From Syncephalis plumigaleata (Eukaryota; Zoopagomycota; Zoopagomycetes; Zoopagales; Piptocephalidaceae), in contig JAIXMF010000150.1 in NCBI GenBank assembly GCA_025201365.1, forward strand, positions 1 through 30,698: a stretch of 30,698 nt of DNA, in the 5' to 3' direction. A model generated the notes under the pieces. It worked only from the letters and a program-made list of their open reading frames with translations. It was not told where the DNA came from and made no database searches. The stretch's first letter is position 1. Each line of letters begins with the position of its first letter. Shown here piece by piece: positions 9,970 through 30,222 of this stretch. A program made the translations under genes and the position numbers.

Positions 9970-10069
9970 TCATGGTACATGATAAGTAATAAGCATAGTT
10001 GGAGTAGAAGAAAGAATCAAACGACGAATAGAGTAGAAGAATGCCCTATAGCATTACATATTTATTCAA

Positions 10070-10246
10070 TCAATGATTAATATTTATGTAATAGGACCAT
10101 GGATGAATAGACGGAAGGGACTTGTAGATATATTTCTTGGTCCAAGGAATAATGACTTGAATAGCGTGGACACTAAAGGGTCTTGCACCAATACATTCTT
10201 GACTTGAATACCTATAATATCTACTTGATGATATCCTTGTCTTGTC
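10070..10246 (-). CDS. Terminal exon of the micro-exon gene: 3' UTR or alternative C-terminal extension
   Basis: It starts at 10246 after CTACAG. If exon 69 is used, this is 3' UTR. If exon 69 is skipped, the phase continues without stop for 58 codons to TGA at 10072-10070, with several Trp, Tyr and basic residues. AATAAA follows at 10066-10061, four bases after the stop. A later acceptor, ATTATAG near 10213, could shorten this exon. Which form is real cannot be decided from DNA. Confidence 0.45.
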   Translation of the reverse strand, partial: DKTRISSSRYYRYSSQECIGARPFSVHAIQVIIPWTKKYIYKSLPSIHPWSYYININH

Positions 10247-10298
10247 CTGTAGTCATAATGGATTAGTATGGGTATGGTTATTGTGGATTATTACTTAC

Positions 10299-10307
10299 TG
10301 CTTAAGC
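10299..10307 (-). CDS. Micro-exon gene exon 69: 9-nt exon with the stop codon
   Basis: Minus strand GCT TAA GCA between acceptor GATAG and donor GTAAGT. In phase 0 it adds Ala and then stops (TAA at 10304-10302). The following 52-nt intron (10298-10247) has a CATACTAATCC branch site and a CTACAG acceptor, so the stop would sit upstream of a last intron. Skipping this exon joins exon 68 to an open 58-codon frame. Confidence 0.65.
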
Positions 10308-13300
10308 CTATCATTCGATTAATGTGAGTTGTATTGCCATTGGTACTTCATTTCTTGTAAACGAGAATACTAGCTTACCTTCTATTATACACAAACATAT
10401 GTAATTAGTACTGGATGCATTACAATAATAGTGTCAACTTACAGGTCTCTATAAGTAAACATACGTGGATCGTGTGTCATATTGTTATTAGTATTTATAG
10501 ATTACGGACAGAATGGTAACTTACACGTGGCTATAGGTAAACATACGTGGATAGTGTGTCATATTGTGATTAGTACTCATAGGTTACGAACAGAATGGTA
10601 ACTTACAGGCTGTTTATACACCAGTATACGTGGACCGAATGTCATATTGTGATTAGTACCCAAAGAGTACGAACAGAATGGTAACTTACACGTGGCTATA
10701 GGTAAACATACGTGGACCGAATGTCATATTGTTATTAGTATTTATAGATTACGAACAGAATGGTAACTTACGCGTGGCTATAAGTAAACATACGTGGATC
10801 GTGTTTCATATTGTTATTAGTATCCATAGATTACGAACATAATAATGACTTACAGGCTGTTTATACATCAGTATACGTGGACCGAATGTCATATTGTTAT
10901 TAGTACCCAAAGAGTACGAATAAGATGGTAACTTACGGGATTCTATAGGTAAACATACGTGGACCGGATGTCATGTTGTGATTAGTACCCATAGATTACG
11001 AATATAATAATGACTTACAGGCTGTTTATACACCAGTATACGTGGATCGTGTGCCATATTGTGATTAGTACCCATAGAGTACGAACAGAATAATGACTTA
11101 CGGGTTTCTATAAGGAAGCATACGTGGATCGTGAGTCATGTTGTGATTAGTACCCATAGATTACGAATATAATAATGACTTACAGGCTGTTTATACATCA
11201 GTATACGTGGATCGTGTGTCATATTGTGATTAGTACCCATAGAGTACGAACAGAATAATGACTTACAGGCTGTTTATACATCAGTATACGTGGACCGAAT
11301 GTCATATTGTTATTAATACACATAGGTTACGAATAAGATGGTAACTTACGGGATTCTATAGGTAAACATACGTGGACCGGATGTCATATTGTGATTAGTA
11401 CATTCATAGATTACGAACAGAATGGTAACTTACAGGATTCTATAGGTAAACATACGTGGATTGTGTGTCATGTAGTGATTAGTATACATAGGTTACGAAC
11501 AGAATGGTAACCTACACGTCTCTATAGGTAAACATACGTGGATCAGGTGTCATATTACAGTTAATATTCCACGTATTACAACAATAGCAGTGTTAACTTA
11601 CGCGCTGTTTATACACGAGCATATGTGGATCGTGTGTCATATATGATTAGTACCCATAGATTACGAACAGAATGGTAACTTACAGGCTGTTTATACACCA
11701 GTATACGTGGGATCATATGCCGTATTGTGGTTAATACACATAGGTTACGAATAAGATGGTAACTTACAGGTGTCTATAGGTAGACATACGTGGATCGTGT
11801 GTCATACCGTGATTAGTACACATAGGTTACGAATATAATAATGACTTACGCCCTGTTATATACAAGCATACGTGGATCGAGTGTCATATATGATTAGTAT
11901 CCATAGAGTACGAATAAGATGGTAACTTACAGGTGTCTATAGGTAAACATACGTGGATCGTGTGTCATATTGTGATTAGTACATTCATAGATTACAAACA
12001 GAATGGTAACTTACTTTCTATCATAAAGAAATACATGCGAGTCATATGCCGTATTGTGATTAATACACATAGGTTACGAACAGAATAATGACTTACAAGT
12101 TTCTATAGGTAAACATACGTGGATCGTGTGTCATATTGTGATTAATACACGTAGGTTACGAACAGAATGGTAACTTACGGGTTTCTATAAGGAAACATAC
12201 GTGGATCGTGTGTCATATTGTTATTAGTATCCATAGATTACGGACAGAATGGTAACTTACACGTCTCTATAGGTAAACATACGTGGATCATGTGTCATAT
12301 TGTGATTAGTACCCATAGAGTACGAACAGAATGATAACTTACACGTGTCTATAGGTAAACATACGTGGGTAGCGTGCAATATTGTGATTAGTAACTAATA
12401 GGCTACGAACAAGATGGTAACTTACATGTGGCTATAGGTAAACATACGTGGATTGTGTGTCATATTGTTATTAGTACTCATAGATTACGGACATAATGAT
12501 GACTTACGTCCTATTTATACACAAACATAGGATGAGCCGAATGTCATATTATAATTAGTACCCATAGATTACGGACAGAATGGTAACTTACAACTTCCTA
12601 TAGGTAAACATATGCGGATCATGTGCCGTCTTATGATTAGTACCCATAAGTTATGGACAGAATGATAACTTACGAAATCCTATAGGTAAACATACGTGGA
12701 TCGTGTGCCATATAGTGATTAGTACACATATATTGCAAACAGAATGGTAACTTACGTCCTATTTATACACGAGTATAGGGTAAGCCGAATGACATATGCA
12801 ATTAGCACTTCAAGAACAACAACAACAACAACACAACTTACAGGCTGTTATTCGTAAGCATACGTGGATCGTGTGCCATATATATGATTAGTATTTCATT
12901 CATTATGGTCAGAATAATGACTTACAAACTATCATACAAAAATATATGTGCATCATGCCCATACTGTAGTTAGTACGTCATTCATTGCCGTTAGAACGGT
13001 AACTTACCCACTATCATAAGAGAACATAGGTAGATCATATACCGTAGCATAATTAGTACCTTATTCATTACAATCAGAATGGTAACTTACGCACTGTTAT
13101 CCACAAATGTATGGATATCATTTGCCACATTATCATTAGTACTCATTCATTATCATCAGTAATATTGACTTACATGCTGTTATAGACAAATATATGTGGA
13201 TTATGTGCCGATACTGTAGTTAGTACGTCATACATTACGATTGAAATGATAACCTACCTCCTATCATACACAAGCATACATGAATGATGAGTCATACTAT

Positions 13301-15946
13301 CATTAGTACCTCATAGGTTACAGCCAGAATGATAACTTACCATCTATCATACGGAAAGTCATGTGTCACGCTACAATTAGTACATTCATTCATTGCAGTC
13401 AGAATGATAACTTACATTCTATCATGCAAAAACATACGTGGATAATGTGCCACGTTAATTAGTACAGCATTCATTGCAATCAGGATGATTACTTACGAGC
13501 TATCATACAGGAAATCATGTGCCATAACGTAGTTAGTACTTCATTCATTACAATTGTAATGATTACTTACTATCTATCATACAAGAACATAAGGAATACA
13601 TATGCCACATTATACTTAGTACGCCATTCATTACGGTAAGAATGGTAACTTACAGTCTATCATACACAAACATACAGGATCATGTACCGTATCGTGATTA
13701 GTATCTCGTTCATTACAGTCAGAATGATAACTTACGTCCTATCATACAGGAACATACATGGACCATGTGCCGTACTGTTGTTAGCACATTCATTCATAGG
13801 TTACAACCATGATAGTAACTTACCCACTATCATACACAAGCAGACATGGATAATGAGCCACGTTGTTAGTAGTACATCAGGTATTATGGTCAGAATGATT
13901 ACTTACGGTCTATCATACGAGGACATAGACGGATCGTGTGCGATATCATAGTTAGTACATCCATTCATTACGACCATAATGATAACCTACACACTGTTAT
14001 AGACAAGCGTATGGATTGTGTGGCAAATTGTGGTTAGTACACCATAGCTTATAATTGGAATGATAACTTACACACTGTTATACCGGGACATATGTATGGA
14101 TCGTGTATCATATTGTGATTAGTACGCCCATAGATTACAATTAAGATGACAACTTACGGGCTATTATTCGTAAGCATACGTGGATCGTGTGCCATATATA
14201 TGATTAGTTTCTCTTTCATTACGGTCAGAATAATGACTCACTGGCTATTGTCCAAAAACATGTGGATCATGTCATATTATTGTTAGTGCATTCATAGATT
14301 GAAATCAGAGTGATGGCTTACATTCTATCATACGAAAATAAGTATTGATTATGGATCATATCGTAATCAGTATATCGCTCATTACTGCCAGAGTGATAGC
14401 TTACATTCTACCATATAGGGAAATGCGTGAATCATACGCCATAATGTGGTTAGTTTCTCTTTCATTACGGTCAGAATAATGACTCACTGGCTATTGTCCA
14501 AAAACATGTAGATCATGTCATATTATTGTTAGTGCATTCATAGATTGAAATCAGAGTGATGGCTTACATCCTATCATACATAGACATATTAGAATTAGTA
14601 CTTCATTCATTACGGCCAGAATGATTACTTACATCCTATCATATACGGAAATGCGTGAATCATACGCCATAGTATGGTTAGTATTGCATACGTTGCAGTC
14701 AGAACGATAACTTACGCGCTATTGTCCAAAAACATGTGTGATCGTGTGCCATGTTAGAATTAGTATTCCATAGATTGTAGCCAAGACGTTAACTTACAAT
14801 CTACCATACATAGACATATTAGAATTAGTGCTTCATTCCTTGCGGTTAGAATGATTACTTACATACTATCATACACAAACATACGTGGGTCATGTGCCAT
14901 TTTATAATTAGTACGCCATTCATTATGATCAGAAATGATAACTTACCCACTAGCATACACGACATATGTTAATTGTGTGCCACGTTGTAATTAGTACTTC
15001 ATTCACTACGGTCAGAATAGTAACCTACAAACTACCATAGAGGAATATACAGGACCATACGCCATAGCATGATTAATGCCTCATTTATTACGGTTAGAAT
15101 GGCAACTTACATCCTAGCATACAGGAGCATGGGTGGATCGTGTGTCATACTGTAGTTAGTACTCATTCATTGTAATCAGGATGATAACTTACATCCTATC
15201 ATACAGGAAACCATGTGCCATATCATAATTAGTATTTCGCTCATTACGGTCAGAAGGCTAACTTACCATCTACCAATACAGAGACATACGTGGATCATGT
15301 TCCATACTATAGTCAGTATCCCATTCATTACGGTCAAAATGATTACTTACAGGCTGATATACGGGGACGTATGTGGATCGTGTGTCATAGCGTGATTAGT
15401 ACATTCATTCATTACAATCACAATGATAACTTACGCACTGTGATGGACAAGTATATGGATTGTGTGACAGATTGTGATTAGTATTTAGTTTATTACGATC
15501 AGAATGATAACTTACATCCGCTTCAAATAGTAGTCACATATAATTTTGATTTACATTACTATTAGCATAGTACTTGTTATGGTCAATAGAGTAGCTTACG
15601 AACTATAGTTAGCAGATCAATATATGAAATAACCATTATGATATGATTAGCATAGTACTTGTTATGGCCAATACACTAGCTTACGGGCTATTATTAACAA
15701 ATCAATATGTAGAATAAACATTACAGTGTGATTAGTATGTCAGAACAACCATTAATATACATGAACTTACGAGCTATCGGTAATCATCGGTGGACAATGA
15801 AACAATAGACTACGATTAGTACATCAATTGATAGGGTCATGGCCAGACGTACCACGACGGACCAAGGCGGGATTAGCTTCAACGGCGACCAGACTGGTAG
15901 CAGCGACGACGGCGACGGCAATAGCGGTAAGGGCAAGGAGCCTCAT
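10302..15946 (-). CDS. Micro-exon gene: secreted 118-aa protein from 69 coding exons, most of them one codon long
   Basis: On the minus strand, 5.6 kb resolves into 68 consecutive introns of 61-85 nt, each bounded by AG and GT. Donors are mostly GTAAGT (some GTAAGC, GTAGGT, GTGAGT, GTACGT). A (T/C)TAAT branch-like site lies about 45 nt before most acceptors. The exons between them are 94 nt (signal peptide), 3, 3, 3, 5, then 34 of 3 nt, then 18 of 6 nt interleaved with 11 of 3 nt, and a 9-nt exon with TAA. Coding length is 357 nt (119 codons with stop), about 6% of the span. The single 5-nt exon exactly restores phase 0 after the phase-1 first exon, so every later micro-exon is one or two whole codons. 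None is a stop. The product would be a signal peptide, a dibasic site, an acidic segment with four Cys and three Trp, and a cationic Pro-rich tail. The family and function are not recognised. A non-coding satellite is the alternative, but phase, stops, promoter and leader argue against it. Confidence 0.85.
10379..12679 (-). CDS. Micro-exon gene exons 40-68: one- and two-codon exons, Pro/Arg/Lys-rich tail
   Basis: Lowest coordinate and minus-strand codons: 12674 GAT TTC; 12592 GAA GTT; 12508 GAC; 12426 CCA CAT; 12343 ACA CGT; 12261 AGA CGT; 12179 AAA CCC; 12097 AAA CTT; 12015 AAA; 11931 ACA CCT; 11850 GGC; 11768 ACA CCT; 11684 CCT; 11602 CGC; 11516 AGA CGT; 11434 AAT CCT; 11350 AAT CCC; 11267 CCT; 11184 CCT; 11102 AAA CCC; 11019 CCT; 10937 AAT CCC; 10854 CCT; 10772 CCA CGC; 10690 CCA CGT; 10607 CCT; 10525 CCA CGT; 10443 AGA CCT; 10379 AAG. 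Of residues 71-118, 18 are Pro and 15 are Arg or Lys. Arg runs at 79-81 and 93-95 are further possible Kex2 sites. The introns here are nearly identical to one another. Confidence 0.8.
12756..15437 (-). CDS. Micro-exon gene exons 6-39: 34 single-codon exons, Cys/Trp/Asp-rich segment
   Basis: Each exon is 3 nt and phase 0. Lowest coordinate and minus-strand codon: 15435 TGC; 15351 CCT; 15267 ATG; 15193 GAT; 15111 GAT; 15029 TTT; 14947 TGG; 14863 TAT; 14798 ATT; 14716 CGC; 14633 GAT; 14568 GAT; 14488 CCA; 14405 AAT; 14322 AAT; 14242 CCA; 14158 CCC; 14072 TGT; 13991 TGT; 13907 ACC; 13824 TGG; 13736 GAC; 13654 ACT; 13571 ATA; 13497 CTC; 13416 AAT; 13341 ATG; 13258 GAG; 13174 CAT; 13091 TGC; 13008 TGG; 12926 TTT; 12842 CCT; 12756 GAC. 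This part (residues 37-70) has four Cys (37, 54, 55, 66), enough for two disulfides, three Trp and many acidic residues. The flanking introns are moderately diverged from one another, and many end in GTATGATAG. Confidence 0.8.
14204..14567. repeat. Recent three-unit duplication inside the array
   Basis: About 118 bp at 14204-14321 recurs almost exactly at 14450-14567, 246 bp away, i.e. three units. The exons in the two blocks are AAT, AAT, CCA (19-21) and GAT, GAT, CCA (16-18). The blocks differ by the same first-base change in both leading codons. Confidence 0.85.
15516..15773 (-). CDS. Micro-exon gene exons 2-5 (3, 3, 3 and 5 nt), phase correction
   Basis: Exon 2 at 15773-15771 (CTC), exon 3 at 15687-15685 (CCC), exon 4 at 15602-15600 (TTC) and exon 5 at 15520-15516 (CGGAT). 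Read from the phase-1 end of exon 1 they give Ala, Pro, Leu, Pro, Asp, directly after the Arg-Arg site. Exon 5 is the only micro-exon whose length is not a multiple of three, and it brings the message to phase 0. Introns 1-4 are 79, 83, 82 and 79 nt and differ most from the rest of the array. Confidence 0.8.
15853..15946 (-). CDS. Micro-exon gene exon 1: signal peptide and dibasic site
   Basis: ATG at 15946-15944 in the context CAACATGAGG. It begins MRLLALTAIAVAVV and continues as a hydrophobic, Ala/Val-rich core of about 20 residues, with a likely signal-peptidase site after residue 24 (VEA). NPALV and then Arg-Arg at residues 30-31 follow, a Kex2-type processing site. The exon ends in phase 1 (last base G at 15853) before the donor GTACGT. 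Without splicing the frame would run only nine more codons to a TGA. Its GC content and codon choice are much higher than those of the array that follows. Confidence 0.85.
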
Positions 15947-16096: not shown

Positions 16097-16104
16097 GCTG
16101 AGAT

Positions 16105-16347
16105 GATGCTAAACATCTAGATGGAAAGCATGATGATGATGGCTATCGTGGTGTCATTCATGCTCCACGCCAGTAATTCCCCTAAGCATCCACTCCACAT
16201 GCCGACATGTTGTAACGACACGAGATTATGCTAAACATCTAGATGGAAAGCATGATGATGATGGCTATCGTGGTGTCATTCATTATCCACGCCAGTAATT
16301 CCCCTAAGCATTCACTTCACATGCCGACATGTTGTAACAACACGAGA
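16105..16347. repeat. 122-bp direct tandem dimer upstream of the micro-exon gene
   Basis: Two copies (about 16105-16225 and 16227-16347) differ at only a few positions. Each contains the palindrome CATCTAGATG, GATGATGATGG and GCCGACATGTTG. The dimer lies 10-250 bp upstream of the TATA box, where upstream activating sequences would be expected. Confidence 0.85.
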
Positions 16348-26324: not shown

Positions 26325-27271
26325 CTAGTCAAAGATACCGTCAGTCCATGGTGGAAATTCACAAATGCGTTTGCGTTGTTTGATCTGCGCAATCTGCTTG
26401 ACGTCATCCTCATCGAGCTTGACTTCCTTAAAGTTGGATTCAATACGGCCTGGATTGGCTGATTTGGGAATTACTGACGTGTTACGCTCGACTGCCCAGT
26501 TGATAAGCACTTGTGCTGGTGTACATTTATGCTTCTCGGCAATCGATGTTATAATCTGCTCTGATTGCAATGGTGCACCGGTGGAACCAAGTGGACTGTA
26601 AGCTGTAACATGAATTCCTTTACTTTGGCAGAATTCAATCAGCTCATCCTGTGGCAAGTATGGATGTAGTTCAACCTGATTGACAGCAGGAACGATCTTG
26701 GCATTATCAAGTAAATGCTTTAGATTGGCAATATTGAAATTGGCTACGCCGATTGCCTTTACTTTACCAGTATTCAATAGATCCTAGTAATGATTATATT
26801 AGCACGAGTAAGATGTGTAATAGTTTTGCTAGCAATACATACCTCCATGGCTTTCCATGTTTCTGTGAAATCAATTTTTTCTACATGATCCATGGTGATT
26901 TTGTCAATCGATACATTAGTATTCTTCTTGAATGCCACTGGCCAGTGCATCAAGTAAAGGTCAAGATAATCAAGACCGAGATCCTTGAGCGTTTTGTTCA
27001 ATGCCTCTGGGACATCCTTGGGATCGTGCATGGTATTCCACAACTTCGATGTTACGTGCAACTGATCGCGAGGTACTCCACAATTGGCGAGTGCTTCACC
27101 AACCTCGGTCTCTTGTCCGTAAATTGCTGCTGCATCAATGTGGCGGTATCCCGTTTTGATTGCATGCTGGACTGCTGCTTTCACCTCGCCTTGTGGTGAT
27201 TGCCAGGTACCAAGACCAATGGCTGGCATAGAGGCGCCAGTGTTCAATTTGAAACTATCGTGAAGATGCAT
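26325..27271 (-). CDS. Aldo/keto reductase, tandem copy A
   Basis: Two minus-strand exons, 27271-26843 and 26783-26325 (295 residues), separated by a 59-nt intron in phase 0. Cytosolic NADPH-dependent AKR of the fungal Gcy1/Ypr1-like type that reduces aldehydes and ketones. Catalytic tetrad: Asp and Tyr in HIDAAAIYGQE, Lys in TSKLWNT, His in YLMHWP. The cofactor segment IPKSANPGRIESN is intact. Start chosen at MHLHDSF. An upstream in-frame ATG at 27331 would add a hydrophobic stretch, but it lies only about 20 nt below the TATA box, probably outside the transcript. The C-terminal loop ends FPPWTDGIFD, different from copies B and C. Confidence 0.93.
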
Positions 27272-27350
27272 GGTGAATGACGGTAGTAATAATAGTAGTA
27301 GAAAAAGCGATAACGACAAGCAAATGTCCATCTACGTCAAACAAGCGTAG

Positions 27351-27358
27351 TTTTTATA
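27351..27358 (-). promoter_or_regulatory. TATA box of reductase copy A
   Basis: TATAAAAA on the minus strand, 80 nt upstream of the MHLHD start codon. Confidence 0.7.
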
Positions 27359-27780
27359 TTGATCGTCATTAATGCAGTATCATTTTGCTTATTAGTTATT
27401 GTTTTAGTTGAGACCGCTTTAGAATTATGCAATGTTTAATACATGTGTTCTAAATATACATTGTGTTACTTTCATTAAGAATGTAAACAATGCATTTTTG
27501 GATTCAAGATAATGCCATCAATTGATATAGCTAGCAATGATGTCTAATCTATAAGTGACAGCATATATCATACGTCATTTACAGTAACAGTTTATAAACA
27601 GTAGACACAATTAGGGCACGCTACATAGAAATGGTTTAACTGATATGGTAATGGATGCAATAGCATAAGAATATCAAAAAACAACATACAGATGACTGAT
27701 GTATGACATATTGATGGAAATATTTTAGTAATCAAGCAAGTAGAGAAAAGAGCGCCAATATGTTTATATATCTCATGTAT
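27359..27780. other. Spacer between reductase copies A and B
   Basis: The half next to copy A (about 27340-27460) is nearly identical to the region upstream of copy C (about 30215-30330), sharing AATGCAGTATCATTTTGC and TTGAGACCGCTTTAG. It is a duplicated promoter. The remainder is AT-rich without a gene. Confidence 0.7.
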
Positions 27781-28727
27781 TTAGTCAAAAACATTAGTAT
27801 ACCATTGTGTGAAAGGGAAGTAACGTTTGCGATGTTTGATCTGCGCAATTTGCTTGACGTCATCTTCATCGAGCTTGACTTCCTTAAAGTTGGATTCAAT
27901 ACGGCCTGGATTGGCTGATTTGGGAATTACCGATGTGTTACGCTCGACTGCCCAGTTGATAAGCACTTGTGCCGGTGTGCATTTATGCTTCTCGGCAATC
28001 GATGTTATAATCTGTTCTGATTGCAATGGTGCACCAGTGGAACCGAGTGGACTGTAAGCTGTAACATGGATTCCCTTACTTTGACAGAATTCAATCAGCT
28101 CATCTTGCGGCAAGTATGGGTGTAGTTCAACCTGATTGACAGCAGGAACAATCTTGGCATTATCAAGCAAGCGCTTCAGGTGGGTAATGCTGAAGTTTGA
28201 CACACCAATCGCCTTTACTTTGCCAGTATTCAATAGATCCTAGTAATGATTATATTAGCACGAGTAAGATGTGTAATAGTTTTGCTAGCAATACACACCT
28301 CCATTGCTTTCCATGTATCTACAAAATCTATATCCGCGATATGCTCGATGGTCACATCATAGAATGGCATGTCTACATCCTTCTTGAATGCCATCGGCCA
28401 ATGTATCAAGTAAAGATCGAGATAATCAAGACCGAGATCCTTGAGTGTTTTGTTCAATGCCTCCGGGACATCTTTGGGATCGTGCATGGTGTTCCACAAC
28501 TTCGATGTTACGTGCAATTGATCGCGAGGTACACCGCAATTGGCGAGTGCTTCACCAATCTCAGCTTCTTGTTTATAGATTGGTGAGCAGTCGATATGTC
28601 GATATCCCGTTTTGATTGCATGTTGAACTGCTGCTTTCACCTCGCCTGGACCTGCTTGCCAAGTACCAAGACCAATGGCTGGTATCAATGCTGCAGTGTT
28701 TAATGTAAAACTATCGTGAAGATGCAT
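27781..28727 (-). CDS. Aldo/keto reductase, tandem copy B
   Basis: Exons 28727-28299 and 28239-27781 (295 residues), same intron position as copy A. The tetrad is intact: HIDCSPIYKQE, TSKLWNT, YLIHWP. Exon 2 is almost identical to that of copy A, whereas the region around residues 118-140 (KDVDMPFYDVT) and the C-terminus (FTQWYTNVFD) differ. These are the substrate loops in the AKR barrel, so the copies probably differ in substrate. Donor is GTGTGT rather than GTATGT. Confidence 0.93.
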
Positions 28728-28790
28728 GGTGAATAATGGCAATGAAATGACGACAATGGTTGTCATCAACTGTTGTTTTAAATCGGCTAG

Positions 28791-28798
28791 TTTTTATA
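28791..28798 (-). promoter_or_regulatory. TATA box of reductase copy B
   Basis: TATAAAAA on the minus strand, 64 nt upstream of the start codon. The flanking promoter is not shared with copies A and C. Confidence 0.65.
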
Positions 28799-29202
28799 GC
28801 CATCACTGCGAATGACGTGGCAGTTTTTAATTAAAAAGAAATGTAATTACAAGTTTCCCGCCGGGTTGGCCACTGCCATATACGTATGTGCTAAAAATAT
28901 ATATTGCTACTGTAAATAGATGATGATGCGAATGCGTTTGAATTAATCGTATGTGCTCCAAAGCCTTCCTATTTGAATCTAGACAAGAGAGTGAATGAAA
29001 AGCATGAGATGATAGAAGACGTATCATCCACCAGCTTAGTTATAATTATAGCTATACGTTACAAATCCAATTAATAGCAAGTCATTGCCATTTCGTTGAA
29101 AATATGTCTTTTAATGACTATAACTATTGAAATTGGGATATTGATATCTAGGCATATATGCCATCAAACTCGTATTGATTTATTTAATGTTACTGCTACT
29201 TG
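28799..29202. other. Spacer between reductase copies B and C
   Basis: AT-rich, no gene supported. It includes the short GC patch TTTCCCGCCGGGTTGGCC at about 28855-28872. Confidence 0.55.
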
Positions 29203-30149
29203 CTAATTAGTCGAAAAATATTTGTCCATCCATGGTGAGGCTTTGCCATAACGTGTGCGTTGTTTGATCTGCGCGATTTGCTTCATGTCATCTTCATCGA
29301 GTTTGACTTCCTTAAAGTTGGATTCAATACGGCCTGGATTGGTTGATTTGGGAATTACCGATGTGTTACGCTTGGCCGCCCAATTGATAAGCACTTGTGC
29401 TGGTGTACATTTATGCTTCTCGGCAATCGATGTTATAATCTGTTCTGATTGCAATGGTGCACCGGTGGAACCAAGTGGACTGTAAGCTGTAACATGAATT
29501 CCTTTACTTTGACAGAATTCAATCAGCTCATCCTGTGGCAAGTATGGATGTAGTTCAACCTGATTGACAGCAGGAACAATCTTGGCATTATCAAGTAAAC
29601 GTTTCAGCGCGGTAATGGTAAAGTTTGATACACCAATTGCCTTTACTTTACCAGTATTCAATAAATCCTAGTAATGATTGCATGAGCACGAGTAAAATAG
29701 ATACGATATGCAATACATACCTCCATGGCTTTCCATGTATCTACGAAGTCTATATCTATCACATCATCCATAGTGAGTTTGTTGGGTGGTTTATCCACTT
29801 CCTTCTTGAATGCTACTGGTGTATGCATCAAATAAAGGTCAAGATAGTCAAGACCGAGATCCTTGAGCGTTTTGTTCAATGCCTCTGGGACATCTTTGGG
29901 ATCGTGCATGGTATTCCACAACTTCGATGTTACGTGCAATTGATCGCGAGGTACACCACAGTTGGCGAGTGCTTCACCAACCTCGGTCTCTTGTCCGTAG
30001 ATTGCTGCTGCATCAATGTGTCGATATCCCGTTTTGATTGCATGTTGGACTGCTGCTTTCACCTCGCCTTGTGGTGATTGCCAGGTACCAAGACCAATGG
30101 CTGGCATAGAGGCACCAGTGTTCAGTTTGAAACTATCGTGAAGATGCAT
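29203..30149 (-). CDS. Aldo/keto reductase, tandem copy C
   Basis: Exons 30149-29721 and 29667-29203 (297 residues). HIDAAAIYGQE, TSKLWNT and the catalytic His are kept, but the residue after that His is Thr (YLMHTPV) where copies A and B have Trp. In aldose-reductase-type AKRs the Trp next to the catalytic His lines the active site, so substrate use may differ. No in-frame upstream ATG exists here, supporting MHLHD as the true start in all three copies. The C-terminus (ASPWMDKYFSTN) is again different. Confidence 0.92.
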
Positions 30150-30222
30150 GGTGAATGATGGTAGTAGTAGTAGAAAAAGCGATAATGACAAGCAAGCGAG
30201 TATCTATGTCAAACAAGCGTAG

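Follow-up and report, generated by a model that had tools for sequence, protein, structure and literature searches.

How finely can a coding region be divided into exons and still encode a protein? The question is raised by a locus of Syncephalis plumigaleata, in a stretch of 30,698 nucleotides (contig JAIXMF010000150.1 of assembly GCA_025201365.1, hereafter the window), where positions 15946-10299 of the minus strand had been read as one gene of 69 coding exons, 48 of them a single codon, for a secreted protein of 118 residues. Our analysis indicates that this gene very probably belongs to a large protein-coding family whose members divide the mature region of a small secreted protein among exons of one codon each. 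The original prediction did not include the size of the family, the dibasic RR ahead of the mature region or the existence of intronless members.

Splicing was parsed by dynamic programming that ignores the reading frame; its scoring of donor, branch site, acceptor and intron length used weights set by hand and gave no bonus to multiples of three. The donor model comprised GTAAGT and GTATGT/GTACGT-type donors, with GC donors admitted solely as GCAAGT. Begun at the ATG at 15946 on the minus strand, this frame-blind parse reproduced the 69 exons up to a TAA and the 118-residue product, predicted to be MRLLALTAIAVAVVAATSLVAVEANPALVRR followed by APLPDCPMDDFWYIRDDPNNPPCCTWDTILNMEHCWFPDDFEVDPHTRRRKPKLKTPGTPPRRRNPNPPPKPPNPPPRPRPPRRPKA. 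The exons measure, in order, 94 nucleotides (nt); 3, 3 and 3 nt; 5 nt; 34 times 3 nt; a mixture of eleven exons of 3 nt and eighteen of 6 nt; and 9 nt for the stop exon (GCTTAAGCA). Exons 6 to 68, which had been claimed to be multiples of three, are 3 or 6 nt throughout, and the gene has in all 48 three-nt exons, 18 six-nt exons and one 5-nt exon that resets the phase. The figure of 48 single-codon exons holds as a count of three-nt exons and falls to 45 as a count of whole codons: exon 1 ends in phase 1, so that exons 2-4 split codons until exon 5 brings the frame back.

All features of the gene lie on the minus strand. The TATA box and AATAAA that had been described as framing it were both found, the former as a TATA-box-like TATAAATA at 16096-16089; GCTATAAAT, TATA-box-like as in the window, lies upstream of the paralogues L042, L044, L047 and L067. 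Exon 1 (15853..15946; parse and signal-peptide search) contains the ATG, the signal peptide and the RR, and is followed by a 79-nt intron (15774..15852, GTACGT...ATAG). Exons 2, 3 and 4 (CTC, CCC and TTC, in phase 1) stand at 15773-15771, 15687-15685 and 15602-15600 and occupy 15600..15773 together with their introns, and exon 5 (CGGAT) is at 15516..15520. Exons 6-39 (12756..15437, the first at 15437-15435 and the last at 12758-12756) are 34 successive single-codon exons for CPMDDFWYIRDDPNNPPCCTWDTILNMEHCWFPD, each of 3 nt, with introns of 62-85 nt. Exons 40-68 (10379..12679, from 12679-12674 to 10381-10379) contribute a basic, proline-rich tail, and exon 69 (10299..10307) the final codon, the TAA and 3 nt of the 3' untranslated region (UTR). 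Introns between coding exons span 61-85 nt, the range originally given; the 3'-UTR intron (10247..10298) has 52 nt (GTAAGT...CTACAG) and is missing, with its flanks precisely joined, from seven intronless paralogues. It leads to a family-conserved 3'-UTR exon (10045..10246; sequence and 3' UTR search) with AATAAA at 10066-10061. The 3' half of the array is highly repetitive. Immediately upstream of the TATA box, a 122-bp tandem duplication with 95% identity occupies window positions 16100-16343.

The window is contig C58 of a genome of 32.6 Mb in 383 contigs. Across this genome, chains of three donors enclosing two 3-nt exons occur 1390 times (758+632), against 14+0 matches for a reversed-pattern control, and the same chain with 2-nt or with 4-nt exons matches once each. 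Chains of 3-nt exons are far beyond chance. The parsed loci contain 445 of the 1390 chains and 793 three-nt exons; scaling by these loci suggests a genome total of roughly 2,500 three-nt exons, probable haplotype copies included.

A genome search with the signal peptide gave 147 matches (weakest E 0.13), and one with the 3' UTR, in which the best 40 of 235 candidates were scored, gave at least 41 rows, among them the window and two pieces belonging to a single place. The 77 signal-peptide loci that we looked at (34 parsed arrays, three intronless loci and two batches of 20 short pieces) comprise 46 with arrays, 30 with the same first exon and no array, and one, L099, cut by a contig end, a ratio of array to intronless loci that is not representative because the short pieces were picked for long open frames. 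Twelve of the 46 array loci are known from their start only, two of these twelve, L103 and L112, being classed by resemblance alone. Overlapping pieces of contig C1 hold five more arrays, four with a similar signal peptide; the array near 1413 kb showed none within the piece inspected. Because of kinship among the genes, and of probable haplotype copies among the loci, family counts are not independent. Some array genes of long contigs have near copies on short ones (C58/C223, C346/C318, C323/C112, C189/C1), with intron divergence of 1.5-9%; these are probably divergent haplotypes or duplicated regions.

The usual gene plan is a 94-nt exon 1 encoding a signal peptide that ends in RR, a variable array of ~80-nt introns and mostly 3-nt exons (sometimes 6, 9 or more nt) with one phase-resetting exon, usually a TAA exon, and then a 51-62-nt 3'-UTR intron and the conserved 3' UTR. 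In the parsed array genes RR has the same position after the signal-like N-terminus; some partly seen loci, for example C1_270k and L103, lack it. Signal-like N-terminus, dibasic site and variable mature part form the predicted layout of a Kex2-type precursor.

The parsed set comprises 34 array genes, with the window gene included and L045 and L001-L008 outside it; for L049, L050, L071, L072 and L074 the parse took base 90 of exon 1 as its start. All 34 have a first exon of 94 nt. The resetting exon has 5 nt in 27 genes, 2 nt in three, 11 nt in two and 14 nt in two; exons before it are all multiples of three, in phase 1, and those after it are in phase 0. The original prediction had named relatives with exon lengths other than multiples of three as grounds for giving it up. 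The outcome favours it, and places these genes with micro-exon genes, whose coding region consists mostly of very small exons divisible by three: of the 807 post-reset exons, 799 have a length in multiples of three and 727 are exactly 3 nt. A stop triplet occurs once among these 727 (in L061), and an earlier set of 29 genes had one in 660, where 51 were expected from intron composition. An in-frame terminal stop exon is reached by 20 of the 34 genes, among them the window gene, in which the ATG, signal peptide and TAA closure had already been recognised.

The four cysteines noted in the window's deduced protein prove to be a family framework. Every one of the 14 peptides that contain exactly four cysteines shows the order C-CC-C, with spacings of 4-16 and 7-13; in 5000 shufflings the mean number with this order was 0.72 and the maximum 4, several of the 14 being related pairs. 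The C-CC-C members have a single mature region without repeated motifs. A Pfam scan of three family proteins found no family above the cut-off, and a search of PDB with a profile of 12 C-CC-C peptides (11 from arrays and one intronless, chosen by the motif) gave nothing convincing (best E 1).

Support for reading the array as a spliced gene comes from intronless paralogues in which some of its exons, and its last junction, appear joined. L101 contains CGTCGTGCTGTTGTCGAACGCCGTGCTCCAAATCCT without interruption, which corresponds to the end of exon 1 of L074, six complete micro-exons and 8 nt of one more. With slashes at the junctions predicted in L074, the unbroken L101 sequence is CGTCGTG/CTG/TTG/TCGAAC/GCC/GTG/CTC/CAAATCCT, 36 identical nt across seven junctions. 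Shorter stretches of this joined sequence are echoed in L059, L094 and L111. At the 3' end, TAAGC[AG] runs straight into the 3' exon in L073, L075, L091, L097, L098, L101 and L111, at the junction where 18 of the 34 array genes have an intron of 51-62 nt; the simple patterns used here matched 12 of the 30 intronless copies and left 18 unmatched.

Three of the intronless loci (L059, L067 and L073) were recognised as such on parsing. Intronless members have the signal peptide and 3' UTR in common with array members, and L067 also the promoter sequence upstream of the TATA box, which weakens plain retrocopying as their origin; they may represent either intron loss or the ancestral state. L080 and L081 encode ...RRAPQGLSCDKEKCCIMDSDICRPSSAKTHA, the C-CC-C framework, in one uninterrupted open reading frame (ORF). 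A search with this intronless peptide matched only its own two loci, and a six-frame search with the array peptide of L064 found no uninterrupted copy. When the mature peptides of 28 of the 30 intronless copies were compared with those of the 34 array genes, the best true pair did not exceed shuffles, the highest scores arising where disrupted copies read through into the 3' UTR. At least four of the intronless copies appear to be disrupted (L073, L075, L101, L107), and L086 and some others are internally repetitive. L077, otherwise intronless, has leftover array-like fragments (branch-site-like, GTAAGT-like) after its ORF. Next to the family member L067, from L067:1425 on, lies another intronless gene with a signal peptide, more distantly related and with a similar leader.

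The splice signals of the arrays are nearly all strong (GTAAGT, CTAAY, YAG): 745 of 949 array introns have a GTAAGT donor and 796 of 949 a CTAAT or CTAAC, at a median branch-to-acceptor distance of 43 nt. A donor that departs from GTAAGT is about threefold commoner where the preceding exon ends in G (50 of 106 against 119 of 808 otherwise), with a p value of 3e-13 that is optimistic because related genes share splice sites. Ten array introns are of the GC-AG type, each after a G-ending exon, as at the TGG/GCAAGT junctions of L041 and L056. The intron consensus extends past the splice signals (branch-centred TAATGATGTACTAATCACAATATGGCACAT). A gene for U1 small nuclear RNA is present in the genome.

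Ten gene pairs were aligned unit by unit (318 units). Cysteine codons were kept in 26 of 26 cases, and exon length changed in 2 of the 318 units, while 25,036 aligned intron bases held 313 gap columns; at the intron rate, about 14 gap columns would be expected over the 1,129 compared bases of the remaining exons. Substitution differed from pair to pair: exons changed more slowly than introns in L041/L056 (3/125 against 230/3123, p 0.03) and faster in L042/L043 (p 0.011), L053/L069 (p 4e-4) and L042/L069 (p 2e-7).

Units can also be compared wherever they lie, here with pairs pre-filtered by shared 5-mers. Units from different genes carry the same codon at a baseline of ~3%, in 52% of pairs at 90-95% intron identity (63 pairs) and in 71% at an intron identity of 95% or more (31 pairs); within a gene the figures are 25% at 90-95% (79 pairs) and 56% at 95% or more (18 pairs). 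Since codon sharing rises with intron identity, and does so incompletely, sharing seems to involve whole intron-plus-codon cassettes, with a fast turnover of codons. Whole units differ as well: a run of 11 units and one further unit of L069 are missing from L053, L042 and L043 differ by one unit, and between the window gene and its near copy on C223 one unit has both a different codon and a different intron (63% identity), suggestive of an exchange of cassettes.

Several observations weigh against the reading as a gene of single-codon exons. Transcription and splicing are here predicted from sequence alone. The intronless matches are limited to the phase-1 micro-exons beside exon 1 and to the last junction, and no intronless copy matches a long run of in-phase single-codon exons, so that the evidence for that run consists of lengths, stops, completeness, cysteine order and the pair comparison. 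L080/L081 score 44 and 40 against L071/L052, where the maxima of 20 shuffled sets are 30-48. Six of the ten pairs show no difference between exon and intron divergence, the remaining four disagree in direction, and the p values of L053/L069 and L042/L069 alone would survive correction for ten tests. Among the 807 post-reset exons, eight are not multiples of three; four of these lie at a chain end or beyond the stop, and four are internal (one each in L047 and L060, two in L057). A clean stop exon is missing from 14 of the 34 parsed genes. Five of these (L049, L050, L052, L056, L071) run beyond the sequence piece used and L041 has an ambiguous tail; the other eight (L047, L051, L054, L057, L060, L061, L063, L068) have a premature stop, an anomalous frame or an unusual exon and may be misparsed or decaying. 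Finally, 20 of the 34 array genes are not counted as C-CC-C, including L050 and L071, near copies of counted genes with cut tails.

Could the array be something other than a chain of coding exons? Since its units have a common consensus and the 3' half of the window array is so repetitive, one might take it for a non-coding satellite of intron-like tandem repeats, rich in splice signals, with the AG-GT triplets as mere spacers. We consider this very improbable: it is at odds with lengths in multiples of three throughout the genome, with the near absence of stop triplets, with the C-CC-C order and the cysteine codons kept in every aligned case, and with joined micro-exons identical to a stretch of an intronless paralogue. 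Much the same holds for removal of the entire array as a single large intron, which would start after exon 1 (or exon 5), end at the 3' exon and leave a very short peptide. The outer donor and acceptor that this needs are present, but the intron would exceed 5 kb, against 60-90 nt for most of the parsed introns, and neither the constraint on codons nor the intronless matches would be explained, so that we hold it to be highly unlikely.

A less remote alternative, still unlikely, grants that the micro-exons are real and supposes that variable subsets of them are used, with many short isoforms and the full chain a minor product. Skipping would be safe for the frame, as nearly all post-reset exons are multiples of three, and schistosome micro-exon genes are described as alternatively splicing small symmetrical exons (PMC4350168). 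Here, with GTAAGT at 745 of 949 donors, there is no sign of optional sites, and a cysteine order conserved from gene to gene suggests that the full chain is of importance. Decay, finally, would make many arrays pseudogenes, for example intronless ancestors invaded by introner-like elements, with few functional survivors. Intronless and array members do share signal peptide and 3' UTR, and in L067 the core promoter too, and eight of the 34 arrays show anomalies. We gave this view added weight because no more than 20 of the 34 arrays end cleanly and the intronless matches miss the long single-codon run; it nonetheless seems improbable, as those 20, which include the window's, do end in an in-frame stop exon, cysteine codons persist and exons hold their length almost unchanged while introns change, and at least four intronless copies look disrupted as well.

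If the array is indeed a protein-coding chain of single-codon exons for a hypervariable secreted peptide, it would have been built by tandem copying of an intron-plus-codon unit, as the consensus that its introns share beyond the splice signals suggests. With introns of ~80 nt and exons of 3 nt, splicing would proceed by intron definition. Two spliceosomes cannot occupy neighbouring introns 3 nt apart at once, and introns are therefore probably removed singly, perhaps from the 5' side, so that a long first exon grows by one codon per round. The secreted precursor would probably be cut after RR, and a two-disulfide fold is likely in the C-CC-C members. Gain, loss or exchange of a unit would add, delete or swap one residue with the frame intact, as the unit gaps in some pairs may illustrate. 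The variability of residues between fixed cysteines points to interaction peptides, and the likeliest role is that of a secreted antimicrobial, effector or recognition peptide, with diversifying selection on at least some members. A bolder proposal, which we think could equally well prove right or wrong, is a codon-cassette system with each amino acid on a unit of its own flanked by introns: through recombination, slippage or conversion among homologous introns, single residues between fixed cysteines would be gained, lost or replaced, and the spliceosome would act as a sequential assembly line adding one codon per cycle. Intron homology would then generate protein diversity at single-residue resolution.

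Our search of a collection of open-access papers for single-codon, 3-nt or micro-exon arrays found no gene with many consecutive 3-nt exons. Among systems that invite comparison, introner elements are introns of common sequence origin scattered into many genes; common origin is alike here, but the present units are in tandem and each carries one codon. Aphid bicycle genes, putative effectors, resemble the present family as a large and fast-evolving family with many micro-exons in one phase, and share with it a cysteine motif. They are described as having ~17 exons on average with internal exons mostly in phase 2, the megacycle gene encoding ~2000 amino acids in more than 100 micro-exons (PMC9168663); here, in contrast, exons are in phase 1 before the resetting exon and in phase 0 after it, and the mature part has nearly one exon per amino acid. 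Schistosome micro-exon genes are likewise described as encoding fast-evolving secreted proteins with a signal peptide and many very small symmetrical exons (PMC10526429, PMC4350168), and we liken them by architecture only. Their exons are given as 3-81 bp and their introns as up to 5 kb, in 35 genes of S. mansoni (PMC10526429), whereas here exons mostly have exactly one codon and the ~80-nt introns share a consensus. Architecture thus groups the present family with micro-exon genes, and its one-codon grain, phase, intron size and intron kinship set it apart. That exons of 1-3 nt can be spliced is illustrated by reports on Arabidopsis APC11 (1 nt; PMC4674806), Fusarium CYP621A (1 nt; PMC12940212) and Drosophila homothorax (3 bp; PMC7392893), each with one such exon as described, unlike the dozens in a row found here; for CYP621A, as here, an intronless relative serves as a length marker. 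The KEX2-processed repeat proteins of fungi are described as releasing repeated near-identical peptide motifs through KEX2 (PMC6339444), unlike the C-CC-C members, which have no repeated motifs; some intronless members, L086 among them, are internally repetitive.

Should the single-codon reading be right, these genes would represent exon fragmentation at its limit, one codon per exon, dozens in succession and family-wide. They would offer a natural test of how the spliceosome handles introns 3 nt apart (its order, its fidelity and its needs for U1 without help from an exon), and of introns as recombination handles for residue-by-residue protein evolution. Annotation pipelines probably miss such genes, and secretome families of related genomes may be invisible for this reason.

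The genes flanking the array encode NPC1, histone H3, Rrp40, KTI12, MMM1-type and aldo-keto reductase proteins, mostly of general eukaryotic kinds; with the compactness of the genome and its short introns they fit a fungal host. The last include three tandem and very similar aldo-keto reductase-like genes on the minus strand at window positions 26325-30191, all three split into two ORFs in one manner; the Pfam match was checked for one ORF of these tandem genes.

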